Shown here in pieces: positions 3,565-64,000 of a stretch of 64,000 bases of DNA. The position numbers and the translations under genes were made by a program. The DNA comes from an uncultured Sphingomonadaceae bacterium (lineage in GTDB: Bacteria; Pseudomonadota; Alphaproteobacteria; Sphingomonadales; Sphingomonadaceae). Numbering within the stretch: the stretch's first letter is position 1; every line of letters begins with the position of its first letter. Under the pieces are notes generated by a model. The model was not told where the DNA came from and did no database searches. It saw nothing but the letters and a program-made list of their open reading frames with translations. Location of the stretch: assembly GCA_947494305.1 (NCBI GenBank), contig CANLUL010000001.1, positions 1 through 64,000 on the forward strand. The letters run 5' to 3'.

Positions 3565-3591
3565 GCCCTGGTGGGGGCCTTCAATAGGTCC

Positions 3592-4431
3592 TCACTGATC
3601 GCTGATACGTTGGCGACGTGCCGATCCAGTTCTGCTTGAACGCACAGTTGATGCCCGTTCTACTGGCGCTTTAGTCGCAGGAGATCGTCGCGTCGTGACC
3701 TGGCGCTGCGACGGTTGACGGGCGGCTGGTCGAGCACGCCTTGGCTGTTCCGTTGCTGCGGTCGACCGACTTTGACGAACTGCTGTGCTATTACCCCGGC
3801 GCGTACTGCGGCTAACACTGTTTTGCCGATTTCCCCGGCGAATTTCACGTCTGGATTCCCGGTTACGATGTTGCAGGTCCTGTTGTGACATCGCTGCACC
3901 GTTGCGGACTGCGCCACCATCTCGGCGATTCTCTCTACGTTCTGCTCTGCGTTCGCGGCGTTCAGCACGCTGTTCTGGTGTTAAGTCACGTAACCGTTCT
4001 GCCCTGCGTTCGCGTCTTTCTGTGCGCTGTTCCGGGCTAAGGTTGCGCACCCGATTAGCGTGACGGCTTTCGCGATTGCCACGACGAACATGTTGCTGAC
4101 CATGCTGATGACGGCGATGCGCCCAATAGCGACGGTGATTATTTCTCATTTGATGCCGGTGCCCGATACGATCAAAAACGAATAGGCCGTAACCAGGATA
4201 GAAGAAATCATCATACCAGCCGCCGCCAAAGCCAATATTGGCGAAGCCATAGCCATAGTCACAGCTATAGTAAGCGTCATAGGGGTCATATGGGTCGCAG
4301 GCATAGCCATCTGAATATCCACCATTCACATAGCCGTCTCCATAAGCGCCATCGGCGTACATACAGGCGCTAAGGCCCAAAGTGGCACCCATCAGCACTG
4401 TTGGTCGCAAAATGCGTTGTAAAATACTCAT
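3592..4431 (-). CDS. Arg-rich putative lipoprotein of unknown function
   Basis: I place the start at 4431, where AGGGGA precedes ATG and the protein opens with a lipoprotein signal ending LGLSAC (Cys23); a longer frame reaches 4554. After the Cys comes a Tyr/Gly/Asp-rich stretch to about residue 80, then a very basic region with two near-copies of an (L/S)xPEQR-x-ERRERRAER unit around residues 130-170, and an Arg/Ser/Thr-rich tail. The total is about 279 residues. No enzyme motif is visible. The acidic/aromatic head and basic tail suggest an envelope protein that binds polyanions, but that is inference. It is divergent from the P450 gene at 4608. Confidence 0.6.
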   Translation of the reverse strand: MSILQRILRPTVLMGATLGLSACMYADGAYGDGYVNGGYSDGYACDPYDPYDAYYSCDYGYGFANIGFGGGWYDDFFYPGYGLFVFDRIGHRHQMRNNHRRYWAHRRHQHGQQHVRRGNRESRHANRVRNLSPEQRTERRERRAERLRDLTPEQRAERRERRAERRENRRDGGAVRNGAAMSQQDLQHRNRESRREIRRGNRQNSVSRSTRRGNSTAVRQSRSTAATEQPRRARPAARQPSQRQVTTRRSPATKAPVERASTVRSSRTGSARRQRISDQ

Positions 4432-4544
4432 AACAATCCCCTGTTGAGGTCGGATAGCGCAGCCAACACTGCCGAGTCTCAAAAATCTTTCTGATGCCCT
4501 GTTTTGTAACGGTTTGGGCTTGAATGGCATATGAATACCAACTC

Positions 4545-4573
4545 TTGCTGACATTAATGAAAGTAGCTATAAA
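4545..4573 (+). promoter_or_regulatory. Sigma-70-like promoter upstream of P450 gene
   Basis: TTGCTG at 4545-4550 and TATAAA at 4568-4573 are separated by 17 bases. They lie 35 bases ahead of the TTG start at 4608, with AGGAG at about 4595 as ribosome binding site. The match was found by eye. Confidence 0.6.
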
Positions 4574-4607
4574 CCTTTTGAACTAGCGATTTTCAGGAGT
4601 CTCCCCC

Positions 4608-6005
4608 TTGGCCACAGCAGCGATTAAACCACATGGATATCCGTTTGAGGAAAGTGCCAATCCGCATTGGACGAAGCGTCCAAGCAAGGAAGAGTTAGCA
4701 CATATTCCCGGAGAAGATGGCTTGCCATTTTTGGGATCTACATTGGAACTTCTCAAAGATCCGCGCGCCTTTGGCCTTCGCATGCTGGAAGAATATGGCT
4801 CGGTATATCGTGCACATAGTTTTGGCGGATGGTCGGTCAATATGCTCGGTGCTGATGCGACTGAGCTGGTGCTATTTAACAAGGATAAGATTTTCTCCAG
4901 TGAGCAGGGTTGGGGGCCTATCCTGAACAACTTGTTCCCACGTGGGTTGATGCTGATGGATTTCGAGCGTCACCGGGCTGACCGCAAGGCACTGTCGGTA
5001 GCGTTTAAACCAAAGCCGATGAGGCATCATTGCCAGGTATTGGGTGAAGGCATATTGGAACGTGTTGCTGATTGGGGTAGCACGGACTTTAATTTCTATC
5101 CGGCGATTAAATCACTGTCGCTGGATACAGCGGCAAGTGCGATCCTTGGCATTCCCTGGGGACCAGAGGCGGATAAGATTAACAAAGCTTTTGTCGATGA
5201 GGTTCAGGCTTCTGTTGGCGTTGCGCGCAAACCTATTCCATTCACAAAAATGTGGCGCGGTGTGAAGGCACGCAAATATCTGCTCAGCTATTTTAAACCG
5301 CAGGTGGAAGAACGGCGTGCAAAGGGCGGCGATGATATCTTTACACAGATATGTCTTGCGACCCATGAAGATGGTGAATTGCTGACCGAGGATGAAGTCG
5401 TGGATCACATGAACTTCCTGATGATGGCGGCGCATGACACGATAACCTCTTCGGCCACCAGCCTAATCTATCTGCTGGCCAAGAATCCGGAGTGGCAAGA
5501 GAAAGTGCGTGAGGAATGCCTTAGTGTAGCGCCGGCTGGACAACAGCTTTCCTTCGAGGATCTAGGTAAACTGGATCTCACCGAAATGGCGTTTAAAGAG
5601 GCGTTGCGACTAATTCCACCGGTACCATCCATGCCGCGCCGTGCCATTAAAGAGTTCACGTTCCGCAACTACACTATACCGGCTGGAACCAATGTTGGGA
5701 TCAGTCCCAGTTTCGTCCACCAAATGGAGAAACACTGGCCGGACCCGCAGAAATTTGATCCCATGCGCTTTACGCCAGAAAATTCTGCCGGCCGCCACAA
5801 ATATGCGTGGGTGCCGTTTGGCGGCGGCGCGCATATGTGCTTGGGATTGCATTTCGCCTATATGCAGATCAAGATATTGGTGCACGCGATGCTGACGCAA
5901 AATCGCGTCCTGTTACAAGGCGGACCGGATTACGAGCCGAAATGGCAGGTTTTCCCTATCCCGCAGCCGCGAGACGGATTACCGGTGCGGTTGGAAAAGC
6001 TCTAG
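4608..6005 (+). CDS. Cytochrome P450
   Basis: The 465-residue protein starts with TTG behind AGGAG. It has the P450 landmarks: an I-helix AAHDT at residues 274-278 (with the acid-alcohol pair Asp277-Thr278), the ExxR motif at Glu331-Arg334, and the haem loop FGGGAHMCLG at 404-413 with Cys411 as haem ligand. It is a soluble bacterial mono-oxygenase needing separate electron carriers, none of which is encoded nearby. The family resembles CYP120/CYP110-like or CYP51-like oxidases more than the CYP153 encoded next door, but the substrate cannot be told. It converges with the CYP153 gene, their stops sharing the bases CTAG. Confidence 0.93.
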   Translation: MATAAIKPHGYPFEESANPHWTKRPSKEELAHIPGEDGLPFLGSTLELLKDPRAFGLRMLEEYGSVYRAHSFGGWSVNMLGADATELVLFNKDKIFSSEQGWGPILNNLFPRGLMLMDFERHRADRKALSVAFKPKPMRHHCQVLGEGILERVADWGSTDFNFYPAIKSLSLDTAASAILGIPWGPEADKINKAFVDEVQASVGVARKPIPFTKMWRGVKARKYLLSYFKPQVEERRAKGGDDIFTQICLATHEDGELLTEDEVVDHMNFLMMAAHDTITSSATSLIYLLAKNPEWQEKVREECLSVAPAGQQLSFEDLGKLDLTEMAFKEALRLIPPVPSMPRRAIKEFTFRNYTIPAGTNVGISPSFVHQMEKHWPDPQKFDPMRFTPENSAGRHKYAWVPFGGGAHMCLGLHFAYMQIKILVHAMLTQNRVLLQGGPDYEPKWQVFPIPQPRDGLPVRLEKL

Positions 6006-7330
6006 TTCTTCCGATGGCAAACCACCGGTAACCAGGTGTAGCCATGCACAAAGGCGCTTGAGGTGCGGCTGGGTTCGTCAAGCACCTCTATATGATCAAA
6101 GCGCGCCAGGATTTCCTCCCACAAAATCTTTAACTGGAGCTCGGCAAGACGGTTGCCGTAACAGCGGTGGATTCCGAAGCCGAAAGAGATGTGATCCTTA
6201 GCCTGTTTGCGATCGATGATGAGCGCATTGGGGTCTTCATCCCAAAATTCTTCATCGCGATTGGCAGAGATATACCACATCGCAACCTGCTCACCTTCGC
6301 GGATGGTTTTGCCGTGCATCTCCACATCTTCGAGCGCGGTGCGCCGCATATAGGATAGCGGCGTTTGCCAGCGGATCATCTCTGATACCATATTGGGGAT
6401 CAGGCTGTGATCGGCTTTCAGCTTGGTATATTCATCGGGGAACTTGTTGAGCGCATAAAGGCCGCCCGTCATAGTATTGCGGGTCGTGTCATTACCACCG
6501 ATAATCAGCAAGATAACATTGCCCAACAGTTCCTGCGGGGTCAGGTTCCTTGTTGCCGGGCCGTGGGCAAGCAGGCTCATTAAATCATCGCCCGGAGGTG
6601 CTGCTTGGCGCTCGGCATAGATACCGGAAAACGTGCCCAGACATTCGCCCAATTCTTTCAGCCACTGTTCGCGCCCGCCGGGACAAATATCCGGGTCAAA
6701 AGGATTGGTGGTCACATCGGACCATCTGGTCAATTCGCGCCGCCGCTCTTGTGGATAGTTGAGCAGCGTTGCGAGCATCATCGCGGTCAACTCGATCGAC
6801 ACTGTATTCACCCAGTCAAACGGTTCTCCAACTGGAAGCGAGTCGAGCAAAGCACTAGTGCGCTGACGGATCAGTGGTTCAAATTCATTGCGGAGCAGGG
6901 AAGGCGCGACAGCAGGCTGCATTGGTTTGCGCTGCGCCCAATGGTGCGGTTCGTCTGCGGCGATAAAACTTTCGCCGGTAAAGGCTTCGATCGGTGGGCC
7001 AAGCGTAATGCCGCCAAACTTGGCATCGGATGAAAAGCGTTTGTTATCGACATCCACAGCTTTGACGTCTTCATAGCGGGTTAGTGACCAATAGGGACCA
7101 GCAACGCTGTCCGCTGTGTAATGCAAGGGTTCTTCTTTGCGCAATCGTTCGAACCGGTCCCACATCTTGTCCTGACGCCATTGCTCCACATCGATAAAAT
7201 CAATGGAGTCCAAGTCGATTTCGCTGGCCGGTTTTATAGGATCACCACGTTCCAGATAATGTGGGCGCGCCGGTTTGCGGTAGCTAATCTCAGGGCGTTT
7301 TAGTTGCGGCGATGGATCGGCTTCGGCCAT
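6002..7330 (-). CDS. Cytochrome P450, CYP153-type alkane hydroxylase
   Basis: The 442-residue protein carries the I-helix GGNDTTRNTMTGG and the haem loop FGFGIHRCYGNRLAELQ with Cys390. Both stretches are characteristic of CYP153, the soluble P450s that omega-hydroxylate medium-chain alkanes and fatty acids in sphingomonads and other oil-degrading bacteria. The start at 7330 follows GCAGGA. No ferredoxin or ferredoxin reductase is adjacent, so electron carriers must come from elsewhere. A 9-9-9 inverted repeat lies 21 bases upstream of the start and may be an operator. The downstream end overlaps the convergent P450 gene by four bases. Confidence 0.9.
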   Translation of the reverse strand: MAEADPSPQLKRPEISYRKPARPHYLERGDPIKPASEIDLDSIDFIDVEQWRQDKMWDRFERLRKEEPLHYTADSVAGPYWSLTRYEDVKAVDVDNKRFSSDAKFGGITLGPPIEAFTGESFIAADEPHHWAQRKPMQPAVAPSLLRNEFEPLIRQRTSALLDSLPVGEPFDWVNTVSIELTAMMLATLLNYPQERRRELTRWSDVTTNPFDPDICPGGREQWLKELGECLGTFSGIYAERQAAPPGDDLMSLLAHGPATRNLTPQELLGNVILLIIGGNDTTRNTMTGGLYALNKFPDEYTKLKADHSLIPNMVSEMIRWQTPLSYMRRTALEDVEMHGKTIREGEQVAMWYISANRDEEFWDEDPNALIIDRKQAKDHISFGFGIHRCYGNRLAELQLKILWEEILARFDHIEVLDEPSRTSSAFVHGYTWLPVVCHRKN

Positions 7331-7350
7331 ATTGATGTTCCTGCAAGTTC

Positions 7351-7377
7351 AATCAGTCATTCTTTAACTGACCGATT
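7351..7377. promoter_or_regulatory. Inverted repeat upstream of CYP153 gene (possible operator)
   Basis: AATCAGTCA at 7351-7359 and TGACCGATT at 7369-7377 form 9-base arms with one mismatch and a 9-base spacer. The site sits 20-47 bases before the CYP153 start codon, where a repressor or activator would act. No regulator gene is adjacent. Confidence 0.45.
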
Positions 7378-7413
7378 AAAATTATCACATGTATGGCTTT
7401 TCAGCAATAGGCG

Positions 7414-10101
7414 CTAACCGCTATTTCGGAGTGCTGTTGCGATAGCGTTGAGAGACAGTTGAATGCCCTCTCCAATACGCGAATCCTCTTCCCCAGCGCG
7501 GAGACGCTTCATCAATTCGATCTGCAAGTGATTGAGCGGTTCGATATAGGGTAGGCGTAATTCGATGCTATTGAACAAGGACGGGTTTTTTGCCAGCAAA
7601 TGCGGTTGATCAGTAATCTCCAGCAACATATCCCGTGTTTGATCCCAACCGGATTTGATGCGATTGAAAAATGTTTGCCCCATATCCTGGTCTTCCACCA
7701 ATTCCGCATAGCGCGCCGCTATCCCCATGTCGGATTTAGCAAGCACCATTTCCATGTTAGAAAGAGTAGCCTGAAAAAACGGCCAAGCTTCGGCCATGTC
7801 CTTTAGTTTTGCTTTGTCGTCATAAGCAGCAAGTGCTTGTCCCACTCCATACCAACCGGGGAGCATAACGCGGGCCTGTGCCCAGCTGAACACCCATGGA
7901 ATAGCACGTAAATCTTCAATCTTGTCGCTCTTGGTTCGGCTGGCGGGGCGTGATCCGATTTTCAGTTTCGCGATTTCCGTCAGCGGAGTCATCTGGCGGA
8001 AAAAGGTGCGGAAGCTATCATCTCCATAGACCAATTCACGATATTCCCCGAATGCAGTCTGCGAAATTCCGTCCATTGCATCGGCAAATATTTTGTTTTG
8101 CGGTCCGTCGCTTTGATCGGGCTCCAGGGAATTGATCAGGACAGCCGAGGTCATAGCCTCCAAATTGGTTTCCGCACCCGCGCGGGTACCATATTTGGCA
8201 GCGATAACCTCGCCTTGTTCGGTAATCCTTATGCGGCCGGCCACTGTGCCTTTAGGCTGAGCCTTAATCGCACCAAAAGCCGAGCCACCGCCCCGCCCGA
8301 CAGCGCCGCCGCGGCCATGGAATAGCTGCATCTTTATGCCGGCTTTATCAAATATGGGCGTCAACGCATTGCTGGCTTTGAACAGGCTCCAGGTGGAGGT
8401 GATGTAACCACCGTCTTTGTTGCTGTCTGAATAGCCAATCATTACTTCCTGATGGCCTCGAGCTTTGGCCAGTGCATGCATTTCCGGAATGGAGAAAAAT
8501 TCGGTCATGACTTCTGGTGCGTTCTCTAGGTCGGCCACAGTCTCGAACAACGGAACCGACATGATTGGGCAGGTTGGAGCGTCACTCTCGTTCGTCGGAG
8601 CGCGATAAAGCCCGCATTCCATCAACAGAACATAGACCTCCAGAATGTCGGAAACGCTTTCACCATTGCTGATATTATAGTTGGTAATGACTTCCGGGCC
8701 ATATTTAGCGTGCGCATCGGCTGCGGCGCGAATGATGGAGAGTTCTTTTGCGGTCTCCTCACTATAGTCGGCCCAGGGACTGACCAGAGGACGATTGTTG
8801 GCGAGTTCGGCGCGGAGCAATGTTACTCGCGTGTCCTCGTCCAGCGCCAGATAATCCGCCTCAACACCGGCTTCTTTCAAAAGCTCCGCAACCACCCTTT
8901 CATGCACACGGCTATTTTGCCGCATATCGAGCGTGGCGAGGTGAAATCCGAATAGTTCTACGGTACGGATCAAGCGGCCCAATGCCCCCGACGTGGCAAA
9001 CACGCCTTTGCCACCGGCTTTGAGGCCGCGCGCCAATATAACCAGCTCTTCACGCAAATGCTGTGGATTGTCATAAGGTTCGGCAACGATCGAAGATGGT
9101 CGACCAGAAACATGACCACATAGTTTCAAATGTGTAGCGGACAATCTGGCATAGATTCCCGATAGCGCGCGACGATAAGGTTCATCTTTGCGGCTGAGCG
9201 CATCATCGCCGCTGGTTTCGGCCAACGCTGAGACCTCCTCTGGCACATCTGCAAGTTCCGTGGAGATCGACAGCTCCGCACCCATCGCGTGCACCCGCAT
9301 CAGGTAGTAGCCAATGACGGTTTCCGCTGCTCGCGATAGCGCTTCTTCCATCGCTTCCGCATCCACAAAAGGATTGCCGTCTCGGTCTCCGCCGATCCAG
9401 CTATTGAGCTTCAGGAAATTGGGCAGGCGCGCGCCCAGCATTTTTTCCCACTTGCCGTATAGACGCGGCAACACCGGAAGAAATACATCCTTCATATAGC
9501 TTTGCGATATTTGCACTTCATCGGTTACAAACAGCCGCTCTCTGCGTAGCGGACGGGTTTGCCAGAGCAGAGCAATCTGCCGCATAATCGCTTCGTCCAG
9601 ATCGTCGCCCTGAGGGGTTTCCGTCTTGCTGGCATCTTTGAGCAACAACAGTTCAGCAATACGCGCCTTGTGATCGATCATGCTCTTGCGACGAACTTCT
9701 GTGGGATGGGCGGTCAGTACGGGCGCGATCAACGCATCATCGAGCAGGGCCAGTATGGCGTCTTTATCTACCCCTTCACTGGCCAGCAGTTCGATGGCTT
9801 CTACAACGCTGGCTCCCTCTTCGGCAGCAACGCCCTGCCGGTCTTCCGCCAGATTGGCGAGTAGCGAGAACAGCATGAAACCCCGCACAAACGCCAAGGT
9901 CTCGTCCAGTGAAAGGGCATCCAAACCCGGATCTATCGCATCCGCATCGGCAACGCCGCGATGCCGGTCAACACTGGTTGAGCGAATATATTCCGTGCGC
10001 CGGTATAACTCTTCCCCGCCATAGGATCGGATGACATCGCCAAGCAGCTTGCCTAGATATTTTATGTCAGGATTTTGATGAACGGTGAGTGCTTCTGTCA
10101 T
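7414..10101 (-). CDS. ppc: Phosphoenolpyruvate carboxylase
   Basis: This enzyme adds bicarbonate to PEP to make oxaloacetate, an anaplerotic step. Signature regions are all present: VLTAHPTEVRRKS with the catalytic His, GYSDSNKDGG, and FHGRGGAVGRGGG. The frame is open to a GTG at 10248, which would give 944 residues and overlap the divergent hydratase gene. I prefer ATG at 10101 (895 residues), because this places the catalytic His at residue 132, close to His138 of the 883-residue Escherichia coli enzyme, and because the conserved core YLGKLLGDVI then lies 14 residues from the start as in that enzyme. Neither start has a clear ribosome binding site. Confidence 0.93.
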   Translation of the reverse strand: MTEALTVHQNPDIKYLGKLLGDVIRSYGGEELYRRTEYIRSTSVDRHRGVADADAIDPGLDALSLDETLAFVRGFMLFSLLANLAEDRQGVAAEEGASVVEAIELLASEGVDKDAILALLDDALIAPVLTAHPTEVRRKSMIDHKARIAELLLLKDASKTETPQGDDLDEAIMRQIALLWQTRPLRRERLFVTDEVQISQSYMKDVFLPVLPRLYGKWEKMLGARLPNFLKLNSWIGGDRDGNPFVDAEAMEEALSRAAETVIGYYLMRVHAMGAELSISTELADVPEEVSALAETSGDDALSRKDEPYRRALSGIYARLSATHLKLCGHVSGRPSSIVAEPYDNPQHLREELVILARGLKAGGKGVFATSGALGRLIRTVELFGFHLATLDMRQNSRVHERVVAELLKEAGVEADYLALDEDTRVTLLRAELANNRPLVSPWADYSEETAKELSIIRAAADAHAKYGPEVITNYNISNGESVSDILEVYVLLMECGLYRAPTNESDAPTCPIMSVPLFETVADLENAPEVMTEFFSIPEMHALAKARGHQEVMIGYSDSNKDGGYITSTWSLFKASNALTPIFDKAGIKMQLFHGRGGAVGRGGGSAFGAIKAQPKGTVAGRIRITEQGEVIAAKYGTRAGAETNLEAMTSAVLINSLEPDQSDGPQNKIFADAMDGISQTAFGEYRELVYGDDSFRTFFRQMTPLTEIAKLKIGSRPASRTKSDKIEDLRAIPWVFSWAQARVMLPGWYGVGQALAAYDDKAKLKDMAEAWPFFQATLSNMEMVLAKSDMGIAARYAELVEDQDMGQTFFNRIKSGWDQTRDMLLEITDQPHLLAKNPSLFNSIELRLPYIEPLNHLQIELMKRLRAGEEDSRIGEGIQLSLNAIATALRNSG

Positions 10102-55257: not shown

Positions 55258-55462
55258 GATGGCGTTCGGTACATTATCTCGAACTATAGAACGGGGAAAA
55301 GGCAGCGACTGGTGAAAAGTTGAATCTTGGTTTCTAGCAGCCACGGTATTCCGAGAGCGATTGCATCAATTCGCGGCTCGCAAAAATTACACTAGCGGAT
55401 CTTTCGCGGATGATTATTGTATCGGCCTTGGGTCGCGGTGCTTTTTGTGGAGTTGCACCGAT

Positions 55463-56821
55463 ATGCGTTTTGGATTTTTATCACTGCCTGTCGCGATAAC
55501 GTTGCTTTCGAGTTGCGTATCCACTCCTAAACCCGTGTCCGATATCGCAAGCAATGCTCCCCCTCAATTCGCAGCATCCGGTCAGCCGGGAACCATTGAT
55601 ACCCGCTGGTGGGATAGCTTTAACGATGCTCGGCTAACCGTACTGGTTGATGAAGGCGTTTTGGAGAGCCCTGCAGTGGGGCAAGCGCTGGCACGGCTGG
55701 AACAGGTTCGAGCACAGGCGCGGATTTCCCGGGCTGATCTCTTACCGCAAGTTGGCGCTGGATTGGGCGGCACGGGGCGGGGCGGGGCGGGCAATGCCGG
55801 TATTGCCGATACACTGGACCTGTCTGTTAATGTCAGCTGGGAAGTCGATCTATGGGGGCGACTATCCTCCCTCAATGCTGCCGACCGAGCGGATTATCTG
55901 GCCAGTGCCGCCAATTTGCGCGCGGCCCGGCAAGCGGTCGCGGCACAAACAACACGCACGTATTTTGCGGTGATTGAGGCTGAGCAACAAATTGCTCTGT
56001 CGAGCCGGGTGCTCGAAACCTACGGAGAATTGACGCGGCAGTTAAACCTGCGGGTTGAGGCCGGGGTATCCCCGCTGAGTTCAAAAACGCTGGTGATCAC
56101 TGATCAGCAAACCGCGCGCGGCGGATTGGAGGCGCGGCAGGAAGATTATAAGCGGCTAGTCCGGCAGTTGGAGATCATTCTGCGGGATTATCCCGATGGA
56201 AAGATTGATCTGGCCGAGGCTCTGCCGGCACTGCCACCGGTACCGGCAACCGGTTTGCCGTCAGAGCTTTTAGCGCGCCGTCCCGATGTGGCGGCCGCCG
56301 ATCTGCAATTGCAGGCAGCGGGCTATCGTTTGGATGCCGCCAAGCGATCCTTCCTGCCCAGTCTTTCGCTCAGTGGCGCGGCTGGTTCATCGGCGGGCAG
56401 CTTTGCCAATCTGTTTGATAGCAGCTTTTTCATCTGGTCAATCGCCGGACAATTGTTGCAGCCAATTTTTCAAGGCGGGCGTCTGCGCGCGCAGGTGGAT
56501 CAGCGCGAAGGCGAACAGGACGAGGCATTGGAGCGCTATGCGGAGATTGCACTACAGGCATTGTTCGAAGTCGAAACCGCGCTTGCGATAGATAGCAACC
56601 TGGCGGCACGCGAAGCGGCGTTCCTTGCGGCAGCGGAGGCGGCGGAGCAATCGCTCGACATTTCCACCAAGCGATATCAGGCGGGGATAGAACCCTTCTT
56701 CAACGTTTTGGAAACCCAGCAACGCGCGTTGAATGCCCGCAGTGCTTATCTCTCCACCCGCCGTGACCGATTGTTCAACCGAGTCGATTTGCACCTCGCT
56801 CTGGGTGGTGGCTTTGAATGA
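55463..56821 (+). CDS. NodT/TolC-type outer membrane efflux lipoprotein
   Basis: I start at ATG 55463, where a lipoprotein signal ends TLLSSC; a longer frame to 55361 lacks a signal at its head. The 452-residue protein has the two OEP repeats of TolC-like factors, with DTRWWDSFNDARLTVLVDEG, VSWEVDLWGRLSSLNAADRADYLA and LLARRPDVAAADLQLQAAGYRLDAAK as NodT-family landmarks. It is not followed by RND genes. The next genes are eleven double-glycine peptides and their C39/HlyD exporter, so it may be the outer membrane exit of that export route. This pairing is inferred from position only. Confidence 0.88.
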   Translation: MRFGFLSLPVAITLLSSCVSTPKPVSDIASNAPPQFAASGQPGTIDTRWWDSFNDARLTVLVDEGVLESPAVGQALARLEQVRAQARISRADLLPQVGAGLGGTGRGGAGNAGIADTLDLSVNVSWEVDLWGRLSSLNAADRADYLASAANLRAARQAVAAQTTRTYFAVIEAEQQIALSSRVLETYGELTRQLNLRVEAGVSPLSSKTLVITDQQTARGGLEARQEDYKRLVRQLEIILRDYPDGKIDLAEALPALPPVPATGLPSELLARRPDVAAADLQLQAAGYRLDAAKRSFLPSLSLSGAAGSSAGSFANLFDSSFFIWSIAGQLLQPIFQGGRLRAQVDQREGEQDEALERYAEIALQALFEVETALAIDSNLAAREAAFLAAAEAAEQSLDISTKRYQAGIEPFFNVLETQQRALNARSAYLSTRRDRLFNRVDLHLALGGGFE

Positions 56822-56845: not shown

Positions 56846-56873
56846 TTGCTGGTTGTCGAATTTATCCTATAAT
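56846..56873 (+). promoter_or_regulatory. Sigma-70-like promoter ahead of the peptide cluster
   Basis: TTGCTG at 56846-56851 and a perfect TATAAT at 56868-56873 are 16 bases apart. Transcription would begin near 56880, leaving about 130 bases of leader before the first peptide gene. This is the only good promoter seen before the peptide array. Confidence 0.65.
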
Positions 56874-57007
56874 AATTTCAATATGTTAGGAAAAATACGA
56901 CATCGATGATCAGAAATTACCGGCGGCTGTGAGGCGCAGCACAGGCGTTTGTGGTAATTTGATCAATAAAGGGTCTGCAAACAACAACAGTGATAAGGAA
57001 TCTCGCA

Positions 57008-57187
57008 ATGACAGACCGTACAAAAAAAGACGAATTGGATGAGCAAGAGCTGGATCAGATCCAAGGCGGAATGAATATTGGCGTTGGTGAACTCCAAGAA
57101 TGTATTGTTAAAAAACAACCTGCTCGCAGCGGCGACTTGCAGCGTCCCGAAACTAAGAAAATGGAACGCGTGTTCGAAGACGAATGA
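57008..57187 (+). CDS. Double-glycine leader peptide 1 (RiPP precursor candidate)
   Basis: The 59-residue product starts at ATG 57008 behind AAGGAA (an upstream in-frame ATG at 56990 is less likely). The 21-residue leader ends DEQELDQIQGG. The 38-residue core holds the only Cys of the family (LQECIVKK), three Arg, and ends KKMERVFEDE, a tail shared with peptide 3. It is first in the array, 130 bases after the promoter. Double-glycine leaders are cleaved by C39 peptidases such as the one encoded at 61938. The mature product and activity are unknown. Confidence 0.85.
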   Translation: MTDRTKKDELDEQELDQIQGGMNIGVGELQECIVKKQPARSGDLQRPETKKMERVFEDE

Positions 57188-57248
57188 AGCGACCGTGGCA
57201 TTGATCGTGACAGAACCAACAGCAACCAATGAATTTAGGAATTTGAAA

Positions 57249-57452
57249 ATGACCAACATTAACAAAGCAACCGAAGAACTGAATGAAGCTGAATTGGACC
57301 AGGTAACCGGCGGTGTTGCCCTGCTGCTGCCCGCTGTTCAGGCCGCTCGTTCGCCACTGTCGCTGAAGGCAAAGGGCACGCCGGCAAAGAGCACAGCAGT
57401 TCCCTCAGAAGATTTTACGCTCAACTACGAGAAAATCAAAGTCGAATATTAA
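57249..57452 (+). CDS. Double-glycine leader peptide 2 (RiPP precursor candidate)
   Basis: The start at 57249 follows AGGA and aligns with the other leaders; a longer frame to 57078 is an overlap artefact. The 67-residue product has a 22-residue leader ending EAELDQVTGG. The 45-residue core begins with a hydrophobic run (VALLLPAVQAARSPLSLKAK), has one Arg in AARS, and ends NYEKIKVEY. It has neither of the two common tail motifs of the family and is the most divergent core. Confidence 0.82.
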   Translation: MTNINKATEELNEAELDQVTGGVALLLPAVQAARSPLSLKAKGTPAKSTAVPSEDFTLNYEKIKVEY

Positions 57453-57482
57453 ACCCCAAAATCATCGGAAAGGAGAAGAGAA

Positions 57483-57683
57483 ATGACCGATAAGAAAACT
57501 GAAGAACTTAAAGAGGCTGAATTGGATAATGTGCAAGGCGGTGTCTATCTACCCGAGTTCAAGAAAGTGGGCGGGAACGCGGTTGGATCTAAAACCAGCA
57601 AGGAATTCCTGAGTTCCGGTCATTCCACTGGTGTCAAACGACCCGCGCCCAAAGGCATGGAACGCGTTTTTGAGGACGAATAG
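57483..57683 (+). CDS. Double-glycine leader peptide 3 (RiPP precursor candidate)
   Basis: The 66-residue product follows GGAAAGGAG. Its 20-residue leader ends EAELDNVQGG, with Asn instead of Gln and Gln instead of Thr at the last positions. The 46-residue core runs VYLPEFKKVGGNAVGSK and ends PKGMERVFEDE, sharing the tail with peptide 1. It carries two Arg (VKRPAP and MERV). Confidence 0.85.
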   Translation: MTDKKTEELKEAELDNVQGGVYLPEFKKVGGNAVGSKTSKEFLSSGHSTGVKRPAPKGMERVFEDE

Positions 57684-57701
57684 CAATCTGGGAGCTAGAT
57701 T

Positions 57702-57920
57702 ATGACGGATAAGAAAACCGAAGAACTAAACGAAGCCGAATTGGATCAGGTAGCTGGCGGTGGTGATACTGTTCGTCAGTATAATCTGGAAAATGCCTGG
57801 CCGACCAGATCAACCAGCAGCACGGGTTTAAGAGCGACCGGTGACGGCAAAAAAGTGGCGTCAACTGCGGGCACCAATCCTGAAGGCGTCGTCGCATCGG
57901 GCGGTGGCAACGGCATATAA
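57702..57920 (+). CDS. Double-glycine leader peptide 4 (RiPP precursor candidate)
   Basis: The 72-residue product starts behind GGGAG. The leader ends EAELDQVAGG and is 20 residues. The 52-residue core has Arg in VRQY, PTRST and TGLRATG, the last matching the G-[ILV]-R-A-T motif of peptides 5 and 8. It ends VVASGGGNGI, the other common tail type. Confidence 0.85.
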   Translation: MTDKKTEELNEAELDQVAGGGDTVRQYNLENAWPTRSTSSTGLRATGDGKKVASTAGTNPEGVVASGGGNGI

Positions 57921-57945
57921 GCTAAATCGAGATAGGAGAGAAAAG

Positions 57946-58158
57946 ATGACCTACAAGAAACCAATCGAAGAGCTAAACGAAGCAGAACTGGATCAAGTGA
58001 CGGGCGGCTTTGCCAATCTGGAAGTCAGTCACATTAAACCAAGTCTGACCAAGGCGGGCATTCGTGCAACCAAAGGTGCAGGCATTCGTATGCCAGAGGG
58101 CGCGGGTATTCGCGCAGGCAATGTTATCAATGGCGAGGTCGGTAAAGGCGAGATTTAG
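57946..58158 (+). CDS. Double-glycine leader peptide 5 with triple AGIR repeat
   Basis: The start at 57946 follows AGGAGAG. The 21-residue leader ends EAELDQVTGG; the core is 49 residues. Residues 36-59 hold three eight-residue repeats with AGIR in each (Arg40, Arg48 and Arg56), coded by 24-base units at 58051-58122. The core opens FANLEVSHIK, shared with peptide 8, and ends GKGEI. The repeated Arg makes it the strongest candidate substrate for the deiminase-like enzyme. Confidence 0.86.
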   Translation: MTYKKPIEELNEAELDQVTGGFANLEVSHIKPSLTKAGIRATKGAGIRMPEGAGIRAGNVINGEVGKGEI

Positions 58159-58177
58159 ACGGGCTGGGGAGATGAAA

Positions 58178-58390
58178 ATGGCCGACAGGAAAAAAGCTAC
58201 GGAGCTTAACGAGCAGGAACTTGATCAGGTAACCGGCGGTGCCGGATTGACCATTTTGACGACCAATTTCAAAGGCAACGTGGCCTCAGCAACCGTTGCA
58301 ACTCCCAAGAGAACCGCTTCGGGTCAGTATAATCCTGAGACCATTACGCGTACTATTCATCCCGTCGAAAGTTCCGAACCAAAGAGCTGA
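58178..58390 (+). CDS. Double-glycine leader peptide 6 (RiPP precursor candidate)
   Basis: ATG 58178 follows GGGGAG at six bases; an ATG two codons earlier has no room for one. The 21-residue leader ends EQELDQVTGG. The 49-residue core is rich in Thr and Ala (TILTTNFKGNVASATVATPK) with Arg in PKRTAS and ITRTI, and ends SSEPKS. It lacks both shared tails. Confidence 0.84.
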   Translation: MADRKKATELNEQELDQVTGGAGLTILTTNFKGNVASATVATPKRTASGQYNPETITRTIHPVESSEPKS

Positions 58391-58418
58391 ACACCTGACG
58401 ACGGTGTGGAGAGACATG

Positions 58419-58646
58419 ATGACCGACAAGAAATCCCAAGAATTGAGCGAACAAGAGCTCGACCAAGTCACCGGTGGTGCTGGTGGTAAGGGCTTGCTTG
58501 GCCATGAATTGACCCATGTGCAGCAGCAAGGCGGCCATAAATATATTGGTGAGACCGAGAAGAATTTGACTTCCGGCGTAGATCGCAAGCGGATCGGCAA
58601 GCAATCAGCACAAATCGTTGCGCAATCTGGCTCTGGCGAAATTTGA
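58419..58646 (+). CDS. Double-glycine leader peptide 7 with HELTH motif
   Basis: The start at 58419 follows GGAGAGA; ATG 58416 is too close. The 75-residue product is the longest. The leader ends EQELDQVTGG. The 55-residue core reads GKGLLGHELTHVQQQGG, in which His29-Glu30-x-x-His33 is the HExxH metal motif found in DUF4157-type proteins. Arg occurs in DRKRIG and the tail is IVAQSGSGEI. Too short to be a protease; see findings. Confidence 0.84.
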   Translation: MTDKKSQELSEQELDQVTGGAGGKGLLGHELTHVQQQGGHKYIGETEKNLTSGVDRKRIGKQSAQIVAQSGSGEI

Positions 58647-58667
58647 ATTCATGATAGGAACATTGGA

Positions 58668-58877
58668 ATGACGGACAAGGCAACCGACGAGCTCGACGAG
58701 CAGGAACTGAATCAAGTGGCCGGTGGAGGAAGGGCAGATTCCCATGATGCCTATGCCAACCTGGAAGTCAGCCATTTGAAATCCAAATTGACAAAAGGAA
58801 CATCTATTCGTGCGACGAGGGGGCCATCCAAATCCAAAAAGCAAATCGTTGCGCAATCTGGCGATGGCAGCATCTGA
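58668..58877 (+). CDS. Double-glycine leader peptide 8 (RiPP precursor candidate)
   Basis: The 69-residue product follows ATAGGAA. The leader ends EQELNQVAGG (Asn for Asp in ELDQ). The core opens GRADSHDAYANLEVSHLK, sharing NLEVSH with peptide 5, and continues SIRATRGPSK. It ends IVAQSGDGSI, like peptide 7. Three Arg are present. Confidence 0.85.
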   Translation: MTDKATDELDEQELNQVAGGGRADSHDAYANLEVSHLKSKLTKGTSIRATRGPSKSKKQIVAQSGDGSI

Positions 58878-58898
58878 ACCAAGGGTTGGAGAAAGATA

Positions 58899-59099
58899 GT
58901 GATCAATGAAAAAAATGAAGAGCTAAATGAGGATGAGCTGGATCAAATTACCGGTGGAGTCCATGGCAGCGCATCACCCAACAATGGTGTGGTCAAAGCT
59001 CAGAAGACTGACAGCAAGGTTCATGGCAGCGCTGCGCCAAATAGCGGTATTCGTAAAAACAAGGAAATCGTCGCTTCAGGTGGCGGCAACGACATTTGA
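58899..59099 (+). CDS. Double-glycine leader peptide 9 with HGSA-PN repeats
   Basis: The start is GTG at 58899, behind GGAGAAAG. The leader ends EDELDQITGG and is 20 residues. The 46-residue core holds two copies of VHGSA-[SA]-PN-[NS]-G (residues 21-30 and 41-50, 20 residues apart). The second is followed by IRKNK. The tail is IVASGGGNDI. It is a sister of peptide 10. Confidence 0.84.
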   Translation: MINEKNEELNEDELDQITGGVHGSASPNNGVVKAQKTDSKVHGSAAPNSGIRKNKEIVASGGGNDI

Positions 59100-59109
59100 T
59101 GGAGGCTAG

Positions 59110-59310
59110 ATGACTGTGAAGAAAACGACTGACGAGCTGAACGAAGACGAGCTAGATCAAATAACTGGCGGAATTCATGGAAGCGCCTCGCCCAATAGTG
59201 GCATTGTGAAAACCACCAAGCCCGGCTCAAAGGTGCACGGCAGTGCGCAGCCCAATAGTGGCGTTCGCGCCAACAGAGTTGTAGCAGAAGGCGGGAGTAG
59301 TGGTATCTGA
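59110..59310 (+). CDS. Double-glycine leader peptide 10 with HGSA-PN repeats
   Basis: The 66-residue product starts ten bases after peptide 9, behind GGAGG. The leader ends EDELDQITGG. The core repeats [IV]HGSA-[SQ]-PNSG at residues 22-31 and 42-51, with the same 20-residue period as peptide 9, then VRANRVV, and ends AEGGSSGI. Its stop overlaps the next ATG (TGATG). Confidence 0.84.
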   Translation: MTVKKTTDELNEDELDQITGGIHGSASPNSGIVKTTKPGSKVHGSAQPNSGVRANRVVAEGGSSGI

Positions 59311-59492
59311 TGACCAACAAGAAAACTAAAGAACTGAGCGCGGAGCAGCTTGATCAAGTCTCCGGTGGAGCCGTGACTGAGGAGCTTTTTGGTGCTTATA
59401 ACGTTGTGGGAAATAGCAAGGGTGTCACAACTGGCGCAGCGAAAGCATCGCGTGATGTCGTAGTCAAAGGCAAAAAGATTTTGCAGAACTGA
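59310..59492 (+). CDS. Double-glycine leader peptide 11 (RiPP precursor candidate)
   Basis: The ATG overlaps the peptide 10 stop by one base. The leader ends SAEQLDQVSGG. The 40-residue core reads AVTEELFGAYNVVGNSKG and ends KGKKILQN with one Arg (KASRD). It lacks the shared tails. The deiminase-like gene begins ten bases later, suggesting coupled translation. Confidence 0.82.
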   Translation: MTNKKTKELSAEQLDQVSGGAVTEELFGAYNVVGNSKGVTTGAAKASRDVVVKGKKILQN

Positions 59493-59502
59493 CGGTTTTG
59501 AC

Positions 59503-60576
59503 TTGCACCTTTTAAACAGCATCGACGGCGCAATAGAGCATCTTCTGCTGCTCGTGCCCGCCTATGAAGCAGAGCATTTTGCTTCTGTTTATGCAGCGTT
59601 GATCAACAGCTTGCCACCCCGAACAACAGTTACGCTCTTGGTGCAAACCGGAGCAGAGACAGCAATCCAGAATTGGGTCATTCCGGCTAGTCAGCGAGAG
59701 TGCATGATCATGGTCGATGTGGGAGAGGCGCCCATGACAAGTTGGGCCTGTGATCTTTTTCTAGCCGGAGAAGATGTTGATGGATCGGAAGCTCTGCTCG
59801 CCACACCGTCAATCGAACGGCGTGAGGACAATCGATTGCCGGGACTTTTGGCAGACCATGGCAGGCAATCTCTCGTCTATGCCTCCGAACCATTTGAAGG
59901 CGGCAACTTTCTGATCAGCGAAAATCACGCCTTCGTCGGCGCCGATAGCCCAGTGATCGCAGAGCTGGAACAGGGTGATCGTGAGATAGTTGTCATCAGC
60001 GCGGCCGATTGTCCGGCGGAATTGCGCCTTTCTGCCCATCGCGGTGATGAGAAGTGGGAACAGATATTCCACTATTATAACAAACCCGAAACCCGGCAGC
60101 CAATCTTCCATATCGATATGTTCATCACCCTCGCCGGACCGGGAGCGGATGGCCGCGAGCGGATAATGATTGGCGATCCGGCACTGGCTGCAGAAATTAT
60201 CGATGTGCCGCTGCATCCACTGGCTCTAGCTGAGCAATTTAATGCCATCGCAGAGGATCTGACGGCGCGTGATTTTGATGTCATTCGCAATCCAATGCCG
60301 ATGATCTACATGGACGATGTCGAAAATCAAAAGCGAACTTGGTTTTATGCCAGTTCCAATAATGTACTGGTGCAGCGTACGGATGGGGATGGAGATATCG
60401 TCTGGTTGCCCGAATATGGTCATGATAACTGGCCGGAACTGGCCAAAACTGATGCAGCCAATCGGGATATCTGGGAAAACCTGGGCTATGAAGTGCGGAT
60501 GATTTCTGACGGACAAAGGCTTGCAGAAAATTTGGGGGGACTGCATTGTTTGACAAATGTGTTGAAACGTGGCTGA
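59503..60576 (+). CDS. Peptidylarginine/agmatine deiminase-fold enzyme (GME superfamily)
   Basis: The 357-residue protein starts at TTG 59503, ten bases after peptide 11. It has the guanidino-modifying enzyme landmarks in order: SWACDLF (Trp81, Asp84), FEGGNFL at 131-137, HIDMF at 203-207 (His203, Asp205), SSNNVL near 284-289, and GGLHCLT at 345-351 with Cys349 in the nucleophile position. In PPAD and agmatine deiminase these residues form the active site that turns arginine or agmatine guanidino groups into ureido groups. The usual WxRD Arg is Cys83 here. The operon position among the peptide genes suggests the substrates are core arginines; a stand-alone agmatine role is less likely. No signal peptide is visible, so it would act in the cytoplasm before export. 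Confidence 0.85.
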   Translation: MHLLNSIDGAIEHLLLLVPAYEAEHFASVYAALINSLPPRTTVTLLVQTGAETAIQNWVIPASQRECMIMVDVGEAPMTSWACDLFLAGEDVDGSEALLATPSIERREDNRLPGLLADHGRQSLVYASEPFEGGNFLISENHAFVGADSPVIAELEQGDREIVVISAADCPAELRLSAHRGDEKWEQIFHYYNKPETRQPIFHIDMFITLAGPGADGRERIMIGDPALAAEIIDVPLHPLALAEQFNAIAEDLTARDFDVIRNPMPMIYMDDVENQKRTWFYASSNNVLVQRTDGDGDIVWLPEYGHDNWPELAKTDAANRDIWENLGYEVRMISDGQRLAENLGGLHCLTNVLKRG

Positions 60577-60643
60577 ATTCGCCAGCAAATTGAGAGGTTT
60601 ATCACGGTAGGGTCGCACCAACCGGGGAGGCAGTGCAAAGCGC

Positions 60644-61927
60644 ATGGCCAGACAGATTTTCAGGCAAGAAGCAATTGACCGGATGGCAAGTCCAGACCGG
60701 CTCGATCAACCGCTCTATCTGGTCAAACCGGCGAACTGGCTTTTCCTCATTGTGACCGCAGTGGTTATCTTGTTCGCATTGATCTGGGGCTTTGTCGCCA
60801 GCGTACCGATCAAGGTCAATGCGCAGGGGATCATGATTGATTCCGCCGGCCTCAGCGAAGTCGCGGTCCAGTATCAAGGCCGCGTCGATGCCATATTGGT
60901 GCAGCCGGGCGAGCAAGTTCAGAAAGGGGATGTGATCGCACGGTTGACCCGCGACAATCGTGAACGCGATATCCAGATTGCCGAAGCCGCCCTGCGCGAT
61001 GCCCGAACCAAGGCGGGCGTGGCGGAAAACATTTTTCGTCGGGGAGAGGGACGTCTGGGCGGAGCCGAAGCGCGGCAATTGGCCTCGATCAACGCCCGCA
61101 TGGCCGAGTTGCGCCGCCAACTGGTGACACGCGAGGAGACCGCCGATAACCTGCGCGCGCTGGTTGAACAAAATGCAGCGACCCGTGAAGAGTTGATGAA
61201 TGTGATTGCGCTCAACGATTCCATCCGCGCCGATATGCGCAAGCTGGAACAGGAACGTTTGCAGGTTGGTGTTGCCTCGGCGCAGCGGCGCAACAGCCGC
61301 GATCAATCGCGCCTGTCGGATAACCAATTGGTGCAGGAACGTCGACGCGAGTTGGAAAAGCTAAGAGCGCAAACCGATGATGAGATTCTAATACGCGCCC
61401 CGCAGGCAGGCCGATTGCTGGAGCTAAAGGTCAATCCCGGCGATGTGCTGGCGCCCGGCGAGGCCATCGCCACGATCGATGCACGCGCCAGTCGGGTCGA
61501 TAAAAAGGGAGGCTTTGACGCCGTGCTCTTCGTCCCGCCAGATGGCGGCAAACGGATTGACCCAGGTATGGTGGTCGAGCTTGTTCCGACCACAACCGCC
61601 AAGGAAGTCTATGGCCACATAAAGGGTGAAGTTGTTTCCGCCAGTGCGCTGCCCGCTAGCCGCGAAGCCATGCGGCGCTATCTGCAAAATGACCAATTGG
61701 TCGAGCAGCTTTCCGCTGCTGCCCCGCCGATTGAAGTCAAAGTCAGGCTTCGTCGCGCCGATAATCCCAGCGGCTATGGCTGGTCCTCCTCTATTGGTCC
61801 CGAACGCCCGGTGACCAAGGGAACGATGCTGGCGGGTAAGATTGTGGTCGAGCAAAAAGCCATGATCGACGTTGTTCTGCCCGGCGTCCGCAACCGGATT
61901 AGCCACAGCATTTCCGGGGCCGAGTGA
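60644..61927 (+). CDS. HlyD-family adaptor of NHLM-type peptide exporter
   Basis: The 427-residue protein opens FRQEAIDRMASPDRLDQPL, characteristic of the NHLM bacteriocin system secretion proteins. It has one membrane helix (about residues 32-53), a biotinyl-lipoyl-like half (YQGRVDAILVQPGEQVQKGDVIARL), a long coiled coil (about 105-235) and the returning half-motif RAPQAGRLLELKVNPGDVLAPGEAIATI. Such adaptors link the inner membrane exporter to an outer membrane factor. It lies between the deiminase-like gene and the C39 ABC exporter. Confidence 0.9.
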   Translation: MARQIFRQEAIDRMASPDRLDQPLYLVKPANWLFLIVTAVVILFALIWGFVASVPIKVNAQGIMIDSAGLSEVAVQYQGRVDAILVQPGEQVQKGDVIARLTRDNRERDIQIAEAALRDARTKAGVAENIFRRGEGRLGGAEARQLASINARMAELRRQLVTREETADNLRALVEQNAATREELMNVIALNDSIRADMRKLEQERLQVGVASAQRRNSRDQSRLSDNQLVQERRRELEKLRAQTDDEILIRAPQAGRLLELKVNPGDVLAPGEAIATIDARASRVDKKGGFDAVLFVPPDGGKRIDPGMVVELVPTTTAKEVYGHIKGEVVSASALPASREAMRRYLQNDQLVEQLSAAAPPIEVKVRLRRADNPSGYGWSSSIGPERPVTKGTMLAGKIVVEQKAMIDVVLPGVRNRISHSISGAE

Positions 61928-61937
61928 AGCCCGCGGG

Positions 61938-64000
61938 ATGAACTTCTTCAAAAAGAAACCACCACGCACACCGACCATTTTGCAGATGGAAGCCGCCGAA
62001 TGTGGCGCGGCGTCGTTGGCGATGATATTGGGGACTTACAACCGCTATGTCCCACTTGAAGAGCTGCGCGGTGAATGCGGAATATCGCGCGATGGGGCAA
62101 AGGCCTCGAACATTCTTAAAGCCGCGCTCAACTATAATCTGGAAAGCAAGGGACTGAAGGTTGAGCCGGAAAACCTGACCGATCTCACTTTCCCAATCAT
62201 CGCCTTTGTCAATTTCAACCACTTCCTGGTCGTCGAAGGTGTCGTCGATGGAGAGGTTTACATTAACGATCCTGCATCGGGGCATCGCACCGAACCGATG
62301 GAGGAGTTCTCGTTGGGTTATACCGGCGTTGTCCTGACGTTCCTTCCAACTTCAGATTTTGTTGCAGGTGATGATCGACCATCGATGCTAGCTTCGCTGA
62401 TCAGCCGGGTGGAAGATTATCGTGCTGGATTACTGTTCATATTCCTGGTCAGTCTGGCGCTGGTCATTCCCGGCATAGTTGTTCCCTTCTTCACTCAGAT
62501 TTTCGTCGACTATGTGCTGGTGCGTTCGCTCGAAGACTGGCTCTGGCCGCTACTGATCGGGATGACAATCACGGCTCTGCTGCGGTTTGGATTGATCTCC
62601 CTGCAAGAGATTTCGCTGGTCCGTCTGGGCGGCGCAATGAAGGGCCGAACCGGCTTCCAACTGCTCCAGCATATGATGCGGCTTCCCATCGGATTTTTCG
62701 AACAACGCTTTACCGGAGAAATTGCGGATCGCGTTCGATTGAACGAGGGGTTGGTTAGCCTGCTTTCGGAACAGATGATCCAGGCCGCGATCAACCTGTT
62801 GCTGGCAATATTCTATTTGATTGTACTGTTATATTTCAGCGTGCCGTTGACGCTCATCATCGTGGCGTTGGCGAGCTTGAACATCATCATATTGCTATAC
62901 ACGACCGCAACGATTGCCGAGAAATTCCGCAAAGTTTCGATCGATCAGGGCAAGTTGATGGGCGCACGGATTGCGGGCCTGAAAGATATCGAAACATACA
63001 AGGCATCTGGTGGCGAAAACATGTTGTTCACCCGCTGGATAGGATTGCAGGCAAAGACAATTAACGGTGTGCAGGAAGCTACCGCGGTTCAAGCATGGAC
63101 TGGGCCAGTACCGGGGTTGCTCTCTACTTTCATCATGCTGACCACGCTACTCGGTGGCGGCTATATGGTGATGCAAGGTCATTTTACGCTGGGCGAACTG
63201 GTGGCCTATCAGGGACTGGCCTTGAGTTTTTCCGGGCCAATCACCGCTCTGGCATCTTTTGGAGCGGAGCTACAACAACTCAGAACTTATCTGGGTCGGC
63301 TGGATGACACGCTGGATCAGCAGGTTGATCGAGTATTTGACGAGGGTGAGCTTCAGGAAGTCGACCGTTTGCCCAAGGGATTGGTTCGACTGGTTGATGC
63401 CAGTTTTGGTTACAACCCCCTCGACCCACCATTGATCGACAGCCTGTCGCTGGACATCCGGCCGGGCCAGCGCGTTGCTCTAGTCGGACCCTCGGGTTCA
63501 GGCAAGTCGACGGTCGGCAAGATGATTGGCGGGCTGGTCGATTTGCAATCCGGACAGATTGAAATAGACGGTCGCGGCCGCAATCAATGGCCGCGGCATA
63601 TTCTGGCTTCACGCCTCGCCTTTGTCCGGCAGGAAGTGATGTTGTTTAAAGGAACGGTTCGCGAGAATCTGTCACTCTGGGACAAAACCATATCCGATGC
63701 CGATTTGGTTCAGGCGGCTAAAGATGCCGCTATTCACGACCGGATTATGGCATGGTCAGGCGGCTATGATGCGATGATAGAATCGGGTGCGGCCAATATT
63801 TCAGGTGGTGAGAAACAGCGCCTCGAAATTGCGCGCGCATTGGCCAGCAACCCCTCGATCATCATTCTTGACGAAGCGACAAGCGCATTGGACCCAGTAT
63901 CTGAATTTTCAGTGATGGAAGCCATTCGGCGACGCGGGCTAACTTGTATTGTGATCGCACATCGCCTGTCCACCATACGGGATTGCGATGAAATCATCGT
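61938..64000 (+). CDS. C39 peptidase-ABC exporter for double-glycine peptides (3' end off window)
   Basis: The gene starts at ATG 61938, eleven bases after the HlyD stop, and stays open to the end of the window (687 codons seen). The N-terminal C39 peptidase has QMEAAECGAASLAMI (Cys22), NHFLVVEG (His95) and INDPASG (Asp111), the catalytic triad that cuts after Gly-Gly. A membrane domain (about 160-440) and an ABC ATPase follow: Walker A GPSGSGKST near residue 520, signature SGGEKQRLEIA near 621, Walker B IIILDEATSALD near 641 and the switch His in IAHRLS. It matches the peptidase/ATP-binding proteins of NHLM-type systems. It should cleave and export the eleven peptides. Confidence 0.93.
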   Translation, partial: MNFFKKKPPRTPTILQMEAAECGAASLAMILGTYNRYVPLEELRGECGISRDGAKASNILKAALNYNLESKGLKVEPENLTDLTFPIIAFVNFNHFLVVEGVVDGEVYINDPASGHRTEPMEEFSLGYTGVVLTFLPTSDFVAGDDRPSMLASLISRVEDYRAGLLFIFLVSLALVIPGIVVPFFTQIFVDYVLVRSLEDWLWPLLIGMTITALLRFGLISLQEISLVRLGGAMKGRTGFQLLQHMMRLPIGFFEQRFTGEIADRVRLNEGLVSLLSEQMIQAAINLLLAIFYLIVLLYFSVPLTLIIVALASLNIIILLYTTATIAEKFRKVSIDQGKLMGARIAGLKDIETYKASGGENMLFTRWIGLQAKTINGVQEATAVQAWTGPVPGLLSTFIMLTTLLGGGYMVMQGHFTLGELVAYQGLALSFSGPITALASFGAELQQLRTYLGRLDDTLDQQVDRVFDEGELQEVDRLPKGLVRLVDASFGYNPLDPPLIDSLSLDIRPGQRVALVGPSGSGKSTVGKMIGGLVDLQSGQIEIDGRGRNQWPRHILASRLAFVRQEVMLFKGTVRENLSLWDKTISDADLVQAAKDAAIHDRIMAWSGGYDAMIESGAANISGGEKQRLEIARALASNPSIIILDEATSALDPVSEFSVMEAIRRRGLTCIVIAHRLSTIRDCDEII

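Follow-up and report, generated by a model that had tools for sequence, protein, structure and literature searches.

Gly-Gly-leader peptide array, deiminase-fold enzyme and NHLM-type exporter in a Sphingomonadaceae bacterium: a candidate system for modification of peptide arginines

Gene content of the cluster

The stretch of DNA analysed here, referred to as the window, comprises 64,000 nucleotides of contig CANLUL010000001.1 (assembly GCA_947494305.1) from an uncultured Sphingomonadaceae bacterium. Its distal part encodes an array of short peptides, an enzyme with a deiminase-type (guanidino-modifying) fold and an exporter of the NHLM type (Table 1). Between 57008 and 59492 on the + strand, eleven successive short genes share a leader of 20-22 residues ending in Gly-Gly (majority sequence MTDxKKTEELNExELDQVTGG), followed by variable cores of 38-55 residues, with intergenic gaps of 10-61 bases and a single overlap of 1 base (59110-59310 / 59310-59492). 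The array had been described in these terms in an initial annotation made from the sequence alone, and all eleven open reading frames (ORFs) were indeed located on that strand; a leader pattern scan of the window skipped the third peptide (57483-57683), which both the ORF list and the core listing contain, and gave no minus-strand match. A promoter and terminator scan returned no more sites than were counted in shuffled sequences.

A profile built from these leaders (A5; 20 rows, 11 of them from the window) matched at E 0.01 in 3 of the 249 family genomes sampled, G440 among them, each of which also carries the enzyme, so the leader is no common chance pattern; genome G315, whose leaders were seen in the related cluster L046, is absent from these result rows, and its sampling is not evident. 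An additional weaker leader match (E 3.3e-5) lies at G000:C2:729388-729447, where no clear Gly-Gly peptide ORF was seen (L149). Three peptides have gapless orthologues in the sister genome with nonsynonymous distances (dN) of 0.07-0.14 and synonymous distances (dS) of 0.35-1.1, dN being far below dS and thus indicating purifying selection on the peptides.

The exporter was assigned in the initial annotation as an NHLM-type HlyD and C39-ABC pair, which is confirmed by TIGR03794 and TIGR03796, both exceeding their cut-offs (for the latter, 919.8 bits with the full C39-ABC gene against 853.3). The second ABC protein scored 697.9-698.6 bits, just short of the TIGR03797 cut-off of 709.4, which is reached in none of 296 genomes of the order, and the NodT-type channel probably serves the exporter as its passage through the outer membrane. 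The bounds originally proposed (56846..64000) enclose the core of array, enzyme and exporter and fall short of the full extent, as the NodT gene lies 5' of them while the C39-ABC gene, the second ABC gene and the cNMP (cyclic nucleotide)-binding protein gene run or lie past the window end. Pfam and NCBIfam scans of the large cluster proteins identified exporter parts, the cNMP-binding protein and the enzyme, with no lasso cyclase or leader peptidase among them; apart from the enzyme, the operon showed no candidate for a tailoring role.

Table 1. Features of the cluster (window positions unless marked as contig positions)
Feature	Position	Strand	Remarks
NodT-type outer-membrane factor	55361..56821	+	5' of the array; TIGR01845, 264.6 bits (cut-off 210.05)
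GG-leader peptide 1	57008..57187	+	Core end MERVFEDE; sole Cys among the 11 cores
GG-leader peptide 2	57249..57452	+	Core start VALLLPAVQAAR (module of the DUF1559-matching L145 peptide), end FTLNYEKIKVEY
GG-leader peptide 3	57483..57683	+	MERVFEDE tail in common with peptide 1
GG-leader peptide 4	57702..57920	+	GLRAT motif, Gly-rich tail
GG-leader peptide 5	57946..58158	+	Three GIR repeats
GG-leader peptide 6	58178..58390	+	QYNPETITR module
GG-leader peptide 7	58419..58646	+	eCIS_core-like module GLLGHELTHVQQQ
GG-leader peptide 8	58668..58877	+	SIRATR motif, IVAQSG tail
GG-leader peptide 9	58899..59099	+	GTG start; HGSA repeats, SGIRK
GG-leader peptide 10	59110..59310	+	HGSA repeats, SGVRA
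GG-leader peptide 11	59310..59492	+	TEELFGAY module
Guanidino-modifying (deiminase-fold) enzyme	59503..60576	+	357 aa; TTG start
NHLM-type HlyD periplasmic adaptor	60644..61927	+	TIGR03794, 258.8 bits (cut-off 156.2)
C39 peptidase-ABC exporter	61938..64000 (in window)	+	ATG at 61938, contig end 64088; PF03412, E 3.4e-33
Second ABC protein	contig 64085-66610		Past the window; after C39-ABC
cNMP-binding protein	contig 66614-67129		Past the window; after second ABC

The enzyme and its linkage to the exporter

Pfam PAD_porph (PF04371), the family of agmatine deiminases and Porphyromonas-type peptidyl-arginine deiminases (PADs), scored 16.7 bits against the enzyme, below its cut-off of 25, and by this sequence measure the enzyme is no textbook PAD. 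The deiminase-like fold originally proposed for it is nevertheless upheld by an AlphaFold model and fold comparison, in which the top 47 rows consist entirely of true or putative deiminases of agmatine, arginine or peptidyl-arginine; this list is a re-ranking of Foldseek matches, and families absent from it may still be similar. With the solved structures of agmatine deiminases and Porphyromonas PAD listed there, the enzyme shares 11-18% identity. Conserved positions comprise W81-A-x-D84, G134-N135, H203-x-D205, N286-N287 and C349, of which D84, H203, D205 and C349 are invariant in alignments of 9 and of 46 sequences, the members of the larger one having partly been collected by the H-x-D pattern. 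These four residues are presumably the catalytic-type Asp, His-x-Asp and Cys. Searching the PDB by sequence with the enzyme or its family returned nothing significant, the top weak matches of the family being a putative PAD and an agmatine deiminase (E 0.04). The TTG start codon is also present in the sister genome, and the dN/dS values of the enzyme (0.15/0.97) place it under a constraint similar to that of the three gapless peptides.

Ordinary PAD_porph genes occur in 28 of 32 genomes of the genus, two of them in the window's own genome, and the cluster enzyme is therefore not the housekeeping copy. A housekeeping agmatine deiminase as the simple answer was rejected because of these two genes together with the rarity of the cluster enzyme. 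A phage or viral origin was likewise discarded, as no match appeared in phages and, of 60 pattern matches in viral contigs, none was confirmed.

The cluster enzyme was found in 1 of the 296 order genomes, the window's own (genomes G312, G315 and G440 lie outside this sample), in 3 of 337 class genomes at E 1e-10, the other two being 30% identical, and in 3 of the 32 genus genomes. An NHLM C39-ABC gene (E 1e-150) is present in exactly these 3 genus genomes, and neither gene was found in the other 29. The order NodT, peptides, enzyme, HlyD, C39-ABC, second ABC and cNMP-binding protein is common to the window and three further clusters, L044, L046 and L047 (the last from Parasphingopyxis marina GrpM-11; L048, from an uncultured Sphingorhabdus metagenome-assembled genome, is a copy of L046 and was counted once), and in 4/4 clusters found the enzyme gene separates the peptide genes from those of the exporter. 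The four enzymes form one clade with an SH-aLRT of 100 by a quick tree method without bootstrap; they are 52-74% identical, while the peptide sets differ, and their longest ORFs measure 357-373 aa, compared with mostly 388-500 aa outside the clade.

NHLM/NHLP cassettes (TIGR03794, TIGR03796, TIGR03797) provide the closest framework: five other loci inspected have HlyD, C39-ABC and second ABC arranged as in the window cluster, and four of these also show a cNMP-binding gene nearby. The leader here is short, 20-22 residues against the long nitrile-hydratase or Nif11 leader of those systems: among the five window peptides included in the NCBIfam scan, none matched the nitrile-hydratase-type long leader TIGR03793, and the Nif11-like TIGR03798 gave a single match below cut-off (E 0.1). 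The tailoring gene also differs, being here that of a deiminase-fold enzyme; no deiminase is annotated in the five other loci, none of which belongs to the six plasmids where the enzyme search gave a match, and two of the five carry other maturases, namely LanM and a Nif11-type precursor with a radical SAM protein. Such substitution fits the mix-and-match cassette proposed for NHLM by Haft et al. 2010 (PMC2887384), whose main text does not contain the word 'deiminase'. Five comparison NHLM loci of the order (L116-L120) gave no enzyme match; L118 contains a Gly-Gly-leader ORF of 447 aa, and no Gly-Gly peptide was found by pattern in L116, L117, L119 or L120, with L117 and L119 ending at contig ends.

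Core arginines and competing explanations

The 31 pattern-found cores of the four clusters (a set that does not include, for example, L047:7901-8206) total 1447 residues with 70 Arg and 138 Lys, and every core has at least one Arg. The motif [GS][ILV]R (Gly/Ser-aliphatic-Arg) was observed 23 times against 2.9 in shuffles, a count reached in none of 2000 shuffles; leaving out the 74% identical sister cluster the numbers are 16 against 1.9 expected, and the window cores alone give 7 against 0.9. The corresponding Lys control showed no enrichment. Across 10 peptide pairs between the window and G312, Arg was kept at 17 of 20 positions, compared with 64% of all core residues.

Taken together, these comparisons argue, by a modest balance, for a rare export system of the RiPP (ribosomally synthesized and post-translationally modified peptide) kind, in which the deiminase-fold enzyme would modify core arginines before C39 cleavage and NHLM export. 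The cell would make a set of short precursors with one shared leader, on which the enzyme, presumably cytoplasmic, would act at the core arginines, chiefly those in the Gly/Ser-aliphatic-Arg motif, converting some of them most likely to citrulline. Modification would probably precede cleavage, after which the C39 domain is expected to cut behind Gly-Gly and the exporter (C39-ABC, second ABC, HlyD and NodT) to carry the cores out of the cell, where, as a default guess, they would serve in secreted competition or signalling. Citrullination appears plausible and is better supported than the initial annotation could show. Its proposal that a local deiminase modifies the precursor arginines gains from the fold, the conserved residues, the linkage in all four clusters, the co-occurrence with the exporter and the arginine motif; a dedicated peptide role for the whole enzyme family is disfavoured.

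Several points weigh against this interpretation. The nearest fold is, narrowly, that of agmatine deiminase, a small-molecule enzyme, and the Pfam scan of the enzyme revealed no leader-binding domain of the RRE (RiPP recognition element) type. The arginine motif was spotted by eye before its enrichment was calculated, and repeats inside one core are not independent; the 10 peptide pairs were also picked by eye, and Gly (47/58), Lys (35/46) and Tyr (6/7) were retained in them about equally to Arg. Some Gly-Gly peptides of G440 (L145, L147) are encoded at a distance from the cluster. In addition, 73 of 77 distinct loci of the enzyme family have no C39/NHLM exporter in the available sequence, some contigs being short, which confines the exporter link to one clade; the 77 comprise the window, three loci from the genus search, 5 of the 6 plasmid matches and 68 loci from a pattern search (minus L048), these 68 having been gathered via one short pattern as an incomplete sample. 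The co-occurrence of deiminase gene, peptide array and C39 exporter stands for that clade and was not found family-wide, and the idea that the family is generally tied to NHLM exporters was rejected (4/77). No other recurrent neighbour of the family stood out beyond lineage-specific synteny, chiefly in Pontibacter and Lentzea, in a neighbour clustering that includes many spurious antisense ORFs.

The agmatine deiminase-like fold would suit an enzyme that handles a small guanidino compound such as agmatine, arginine or a relative, for instance to feed or protect the producer, with the exported peptides left unmodified. This explanation is unlikely, given the two ordinary PAD_porph genes already in the genome, the position of the enzyme gene in all four clusters, its lack of matches in the 29 genus genomes without the exporter (G312 has a second, unlinked relative) and the specific motif around the core arginines. 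Still less probable is another guanidino reaction on peptide arginine, such as amidino transfer or removal yielding ornithine, since the leading fold-comparison rows are exclusively deiminases. The lowest standing among these alternatives falls to ordinary unmodified Gly-Gly-leader peptides accompanied by a passenger or self-protection enzyme, and yet the leaders do resemble those of class II bacteriocins: TIGR01847 (cut-off 15.7) was passed by three of the five scanned peptides, at 58899 (18.3 bits), 57249 and 58178 (16.2), with 58419 (15.4) and 57702 (13.1) below it, and ComC and Bacteriocin_IIc gave weak matches. NHLM cassettes without an annotated deiminase, as in the five other loci viewed, also accord with it, but a passenger is not expected to hold the same slot across clusters whose enzymes are 52-74% identical and whose peptide sets vary. 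The CTB family NF038167 shares with the array a short leader ending in Gly-Gly, as does TIGR01847; its best match among the scanned peptides, peptide 6 (E 1.9e-6, 27.9 bits), remains under the cut-off of 32, and the window cores differ in being shuffled modules.

Among known ribosomal peptides with citrulline, the citrulassin lasso peptides of bacteria are encoded apart from their PAD gene, which lies outside the peptide cluster (PMC12971885), as had been noted in the initial annotation. Peptide arginine as the substrate of deimination would be common to both, whereas the cluster described here has a divergent enzyme inside it, many precursors and no lasso machinery seen. Among the matches listed from the open-access literature, whose coverage is incomplete, no described system combines an array, a local deiminase and an NHLM exporter, in agreement with what had been claimed for this layout. 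A compact operon of enzyme, many natural substrates and exporter would make peptide deimination amenable to testing and to engineering.

Mosaic cores and distant enzyme relatives

The cores are composed of modules that recur in differing combinations. With the sister cluster left out and three peptides added (one partly typed in), 23 of 276 core pairs have an exact 6-mer in common, compared with a mean of 0.045 and a maximum of 1 in 200 shuffles; relatedness of the peptides explains part of this sharing. TEELFGAY stands alone in the window peptide at 59310 and with GIR repeats in L047 9357; IGETEKNL follows the eCIS-like module in window 58419 and L046 3387, and FSLNFEKIK in L047 7714; QYNPET has differing heads in L044 9354 and window 58178. 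Two further unlinked Gly-Gly-leader peptides at L147:2422-2864 (G440) include one with QYNPETVSRSL, and peptides with such leaders 3' of the cNMP gene (L046:11500-11736 and L047:17748-17975) have a common YLKIGDI start.

Some modules match domain families. eCIS_core (PF13699) was detected in window 58419 (22.9 bits, E 9.8e-5), just over the cut-off of 22 and its only match in the window genome, and in L046 3387 (27.8 bits, E 2.8e-6); the HELSH head of L044 9354 gave no eCIS_core match. DUF1559 was matched by the unlinked peptide L145:2532-2702 of P. marina (G440) with 32.6 bits (cut-off 23.3, E 1.1e-7), and the 36-aa core of this peptide shares 69% identity with part of a DUF1559 protein from Planctomyces (E 1e-5). 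The alignment of window 57249 to the DUF1559-type module spans the first 12 core residues, and Pfam gave no DUF1559 match for window 57249, L044 10155 or L047 9143. Searching with the peptides that carry this module returned a single genome, that of the window, from 398 sampled across the phylum. Three suspected likenesses were without significant search support and are not claimed: Hcp for YLKIGDI and FSLNYEKIK (one Hcp chain at E 0.26), CIS tube proteins for QYNPETITR, and peptidoglycan-binding domains for DVDGIVGPKT (PG_binding_3 at E 0.02-0.04, below cut-off).

Cores that are shuffled and in part mimic protein families are unusual in themselves and raise the question of why DUF1559- and eCIS_core-like fragments are exported. 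In a speculative and rather doubtful scenario, the system would export citrullinated combinatorial mosaics whose modules copy hallmark segments of other bacteria's proteins, the modified mimics acting as extracellular decoys or disruptors of those machines; the mimicked stretches would be LLLPAVQSAREAAR...NNLKQIGLALHN of planctomycete DUF1559 proteins and LLAHELTHVQQ of eCIS_core/DUF4157.

Distant members of the enzyme family lie near YcaO and TfuA genes in L041, L043, L108 and L112, adjoining the enzyme gene in the first two and about 2 kb away in L108 (on the opposite strand) and L112, with YcaO recognized by Pfam in L043, L108 and L112. These four loci also contain a small ORF of 142-185 aa without a Pfam family, and L043 a BTAD-type regulator; they possibly represent a second peptide or protein maturation system. 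A peptide-maturation context is common to them and YcaO-TfuA clusters such as std, which makes homocitrulline from Lys and according to its authors encodes no deiminase (PMC13174530); neither YcaO nor TfuA was seen in the window cluster.

The second, unlinked relative in G312 (L045) is a 463-aa family member adjoining a true PAD (PF03068, E 2.1e-126), clustered within 3129-8969 with a small ORF and a radical SAM protein; profile comparison (A4) with this PAD gave a probability of 5.6%, which is not significant. On a plasmid of Paenibacillus polymyxa M1 (L039:7857-10995) the gene immediately after a family member encodes a DNA/RNA non-specific endonuclease, and on a plasmid of Aureispira sp. 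CCB-E (L042) another member has type III-B CRISPR genes on one side and several genes for TIR-domain proteins on the other.

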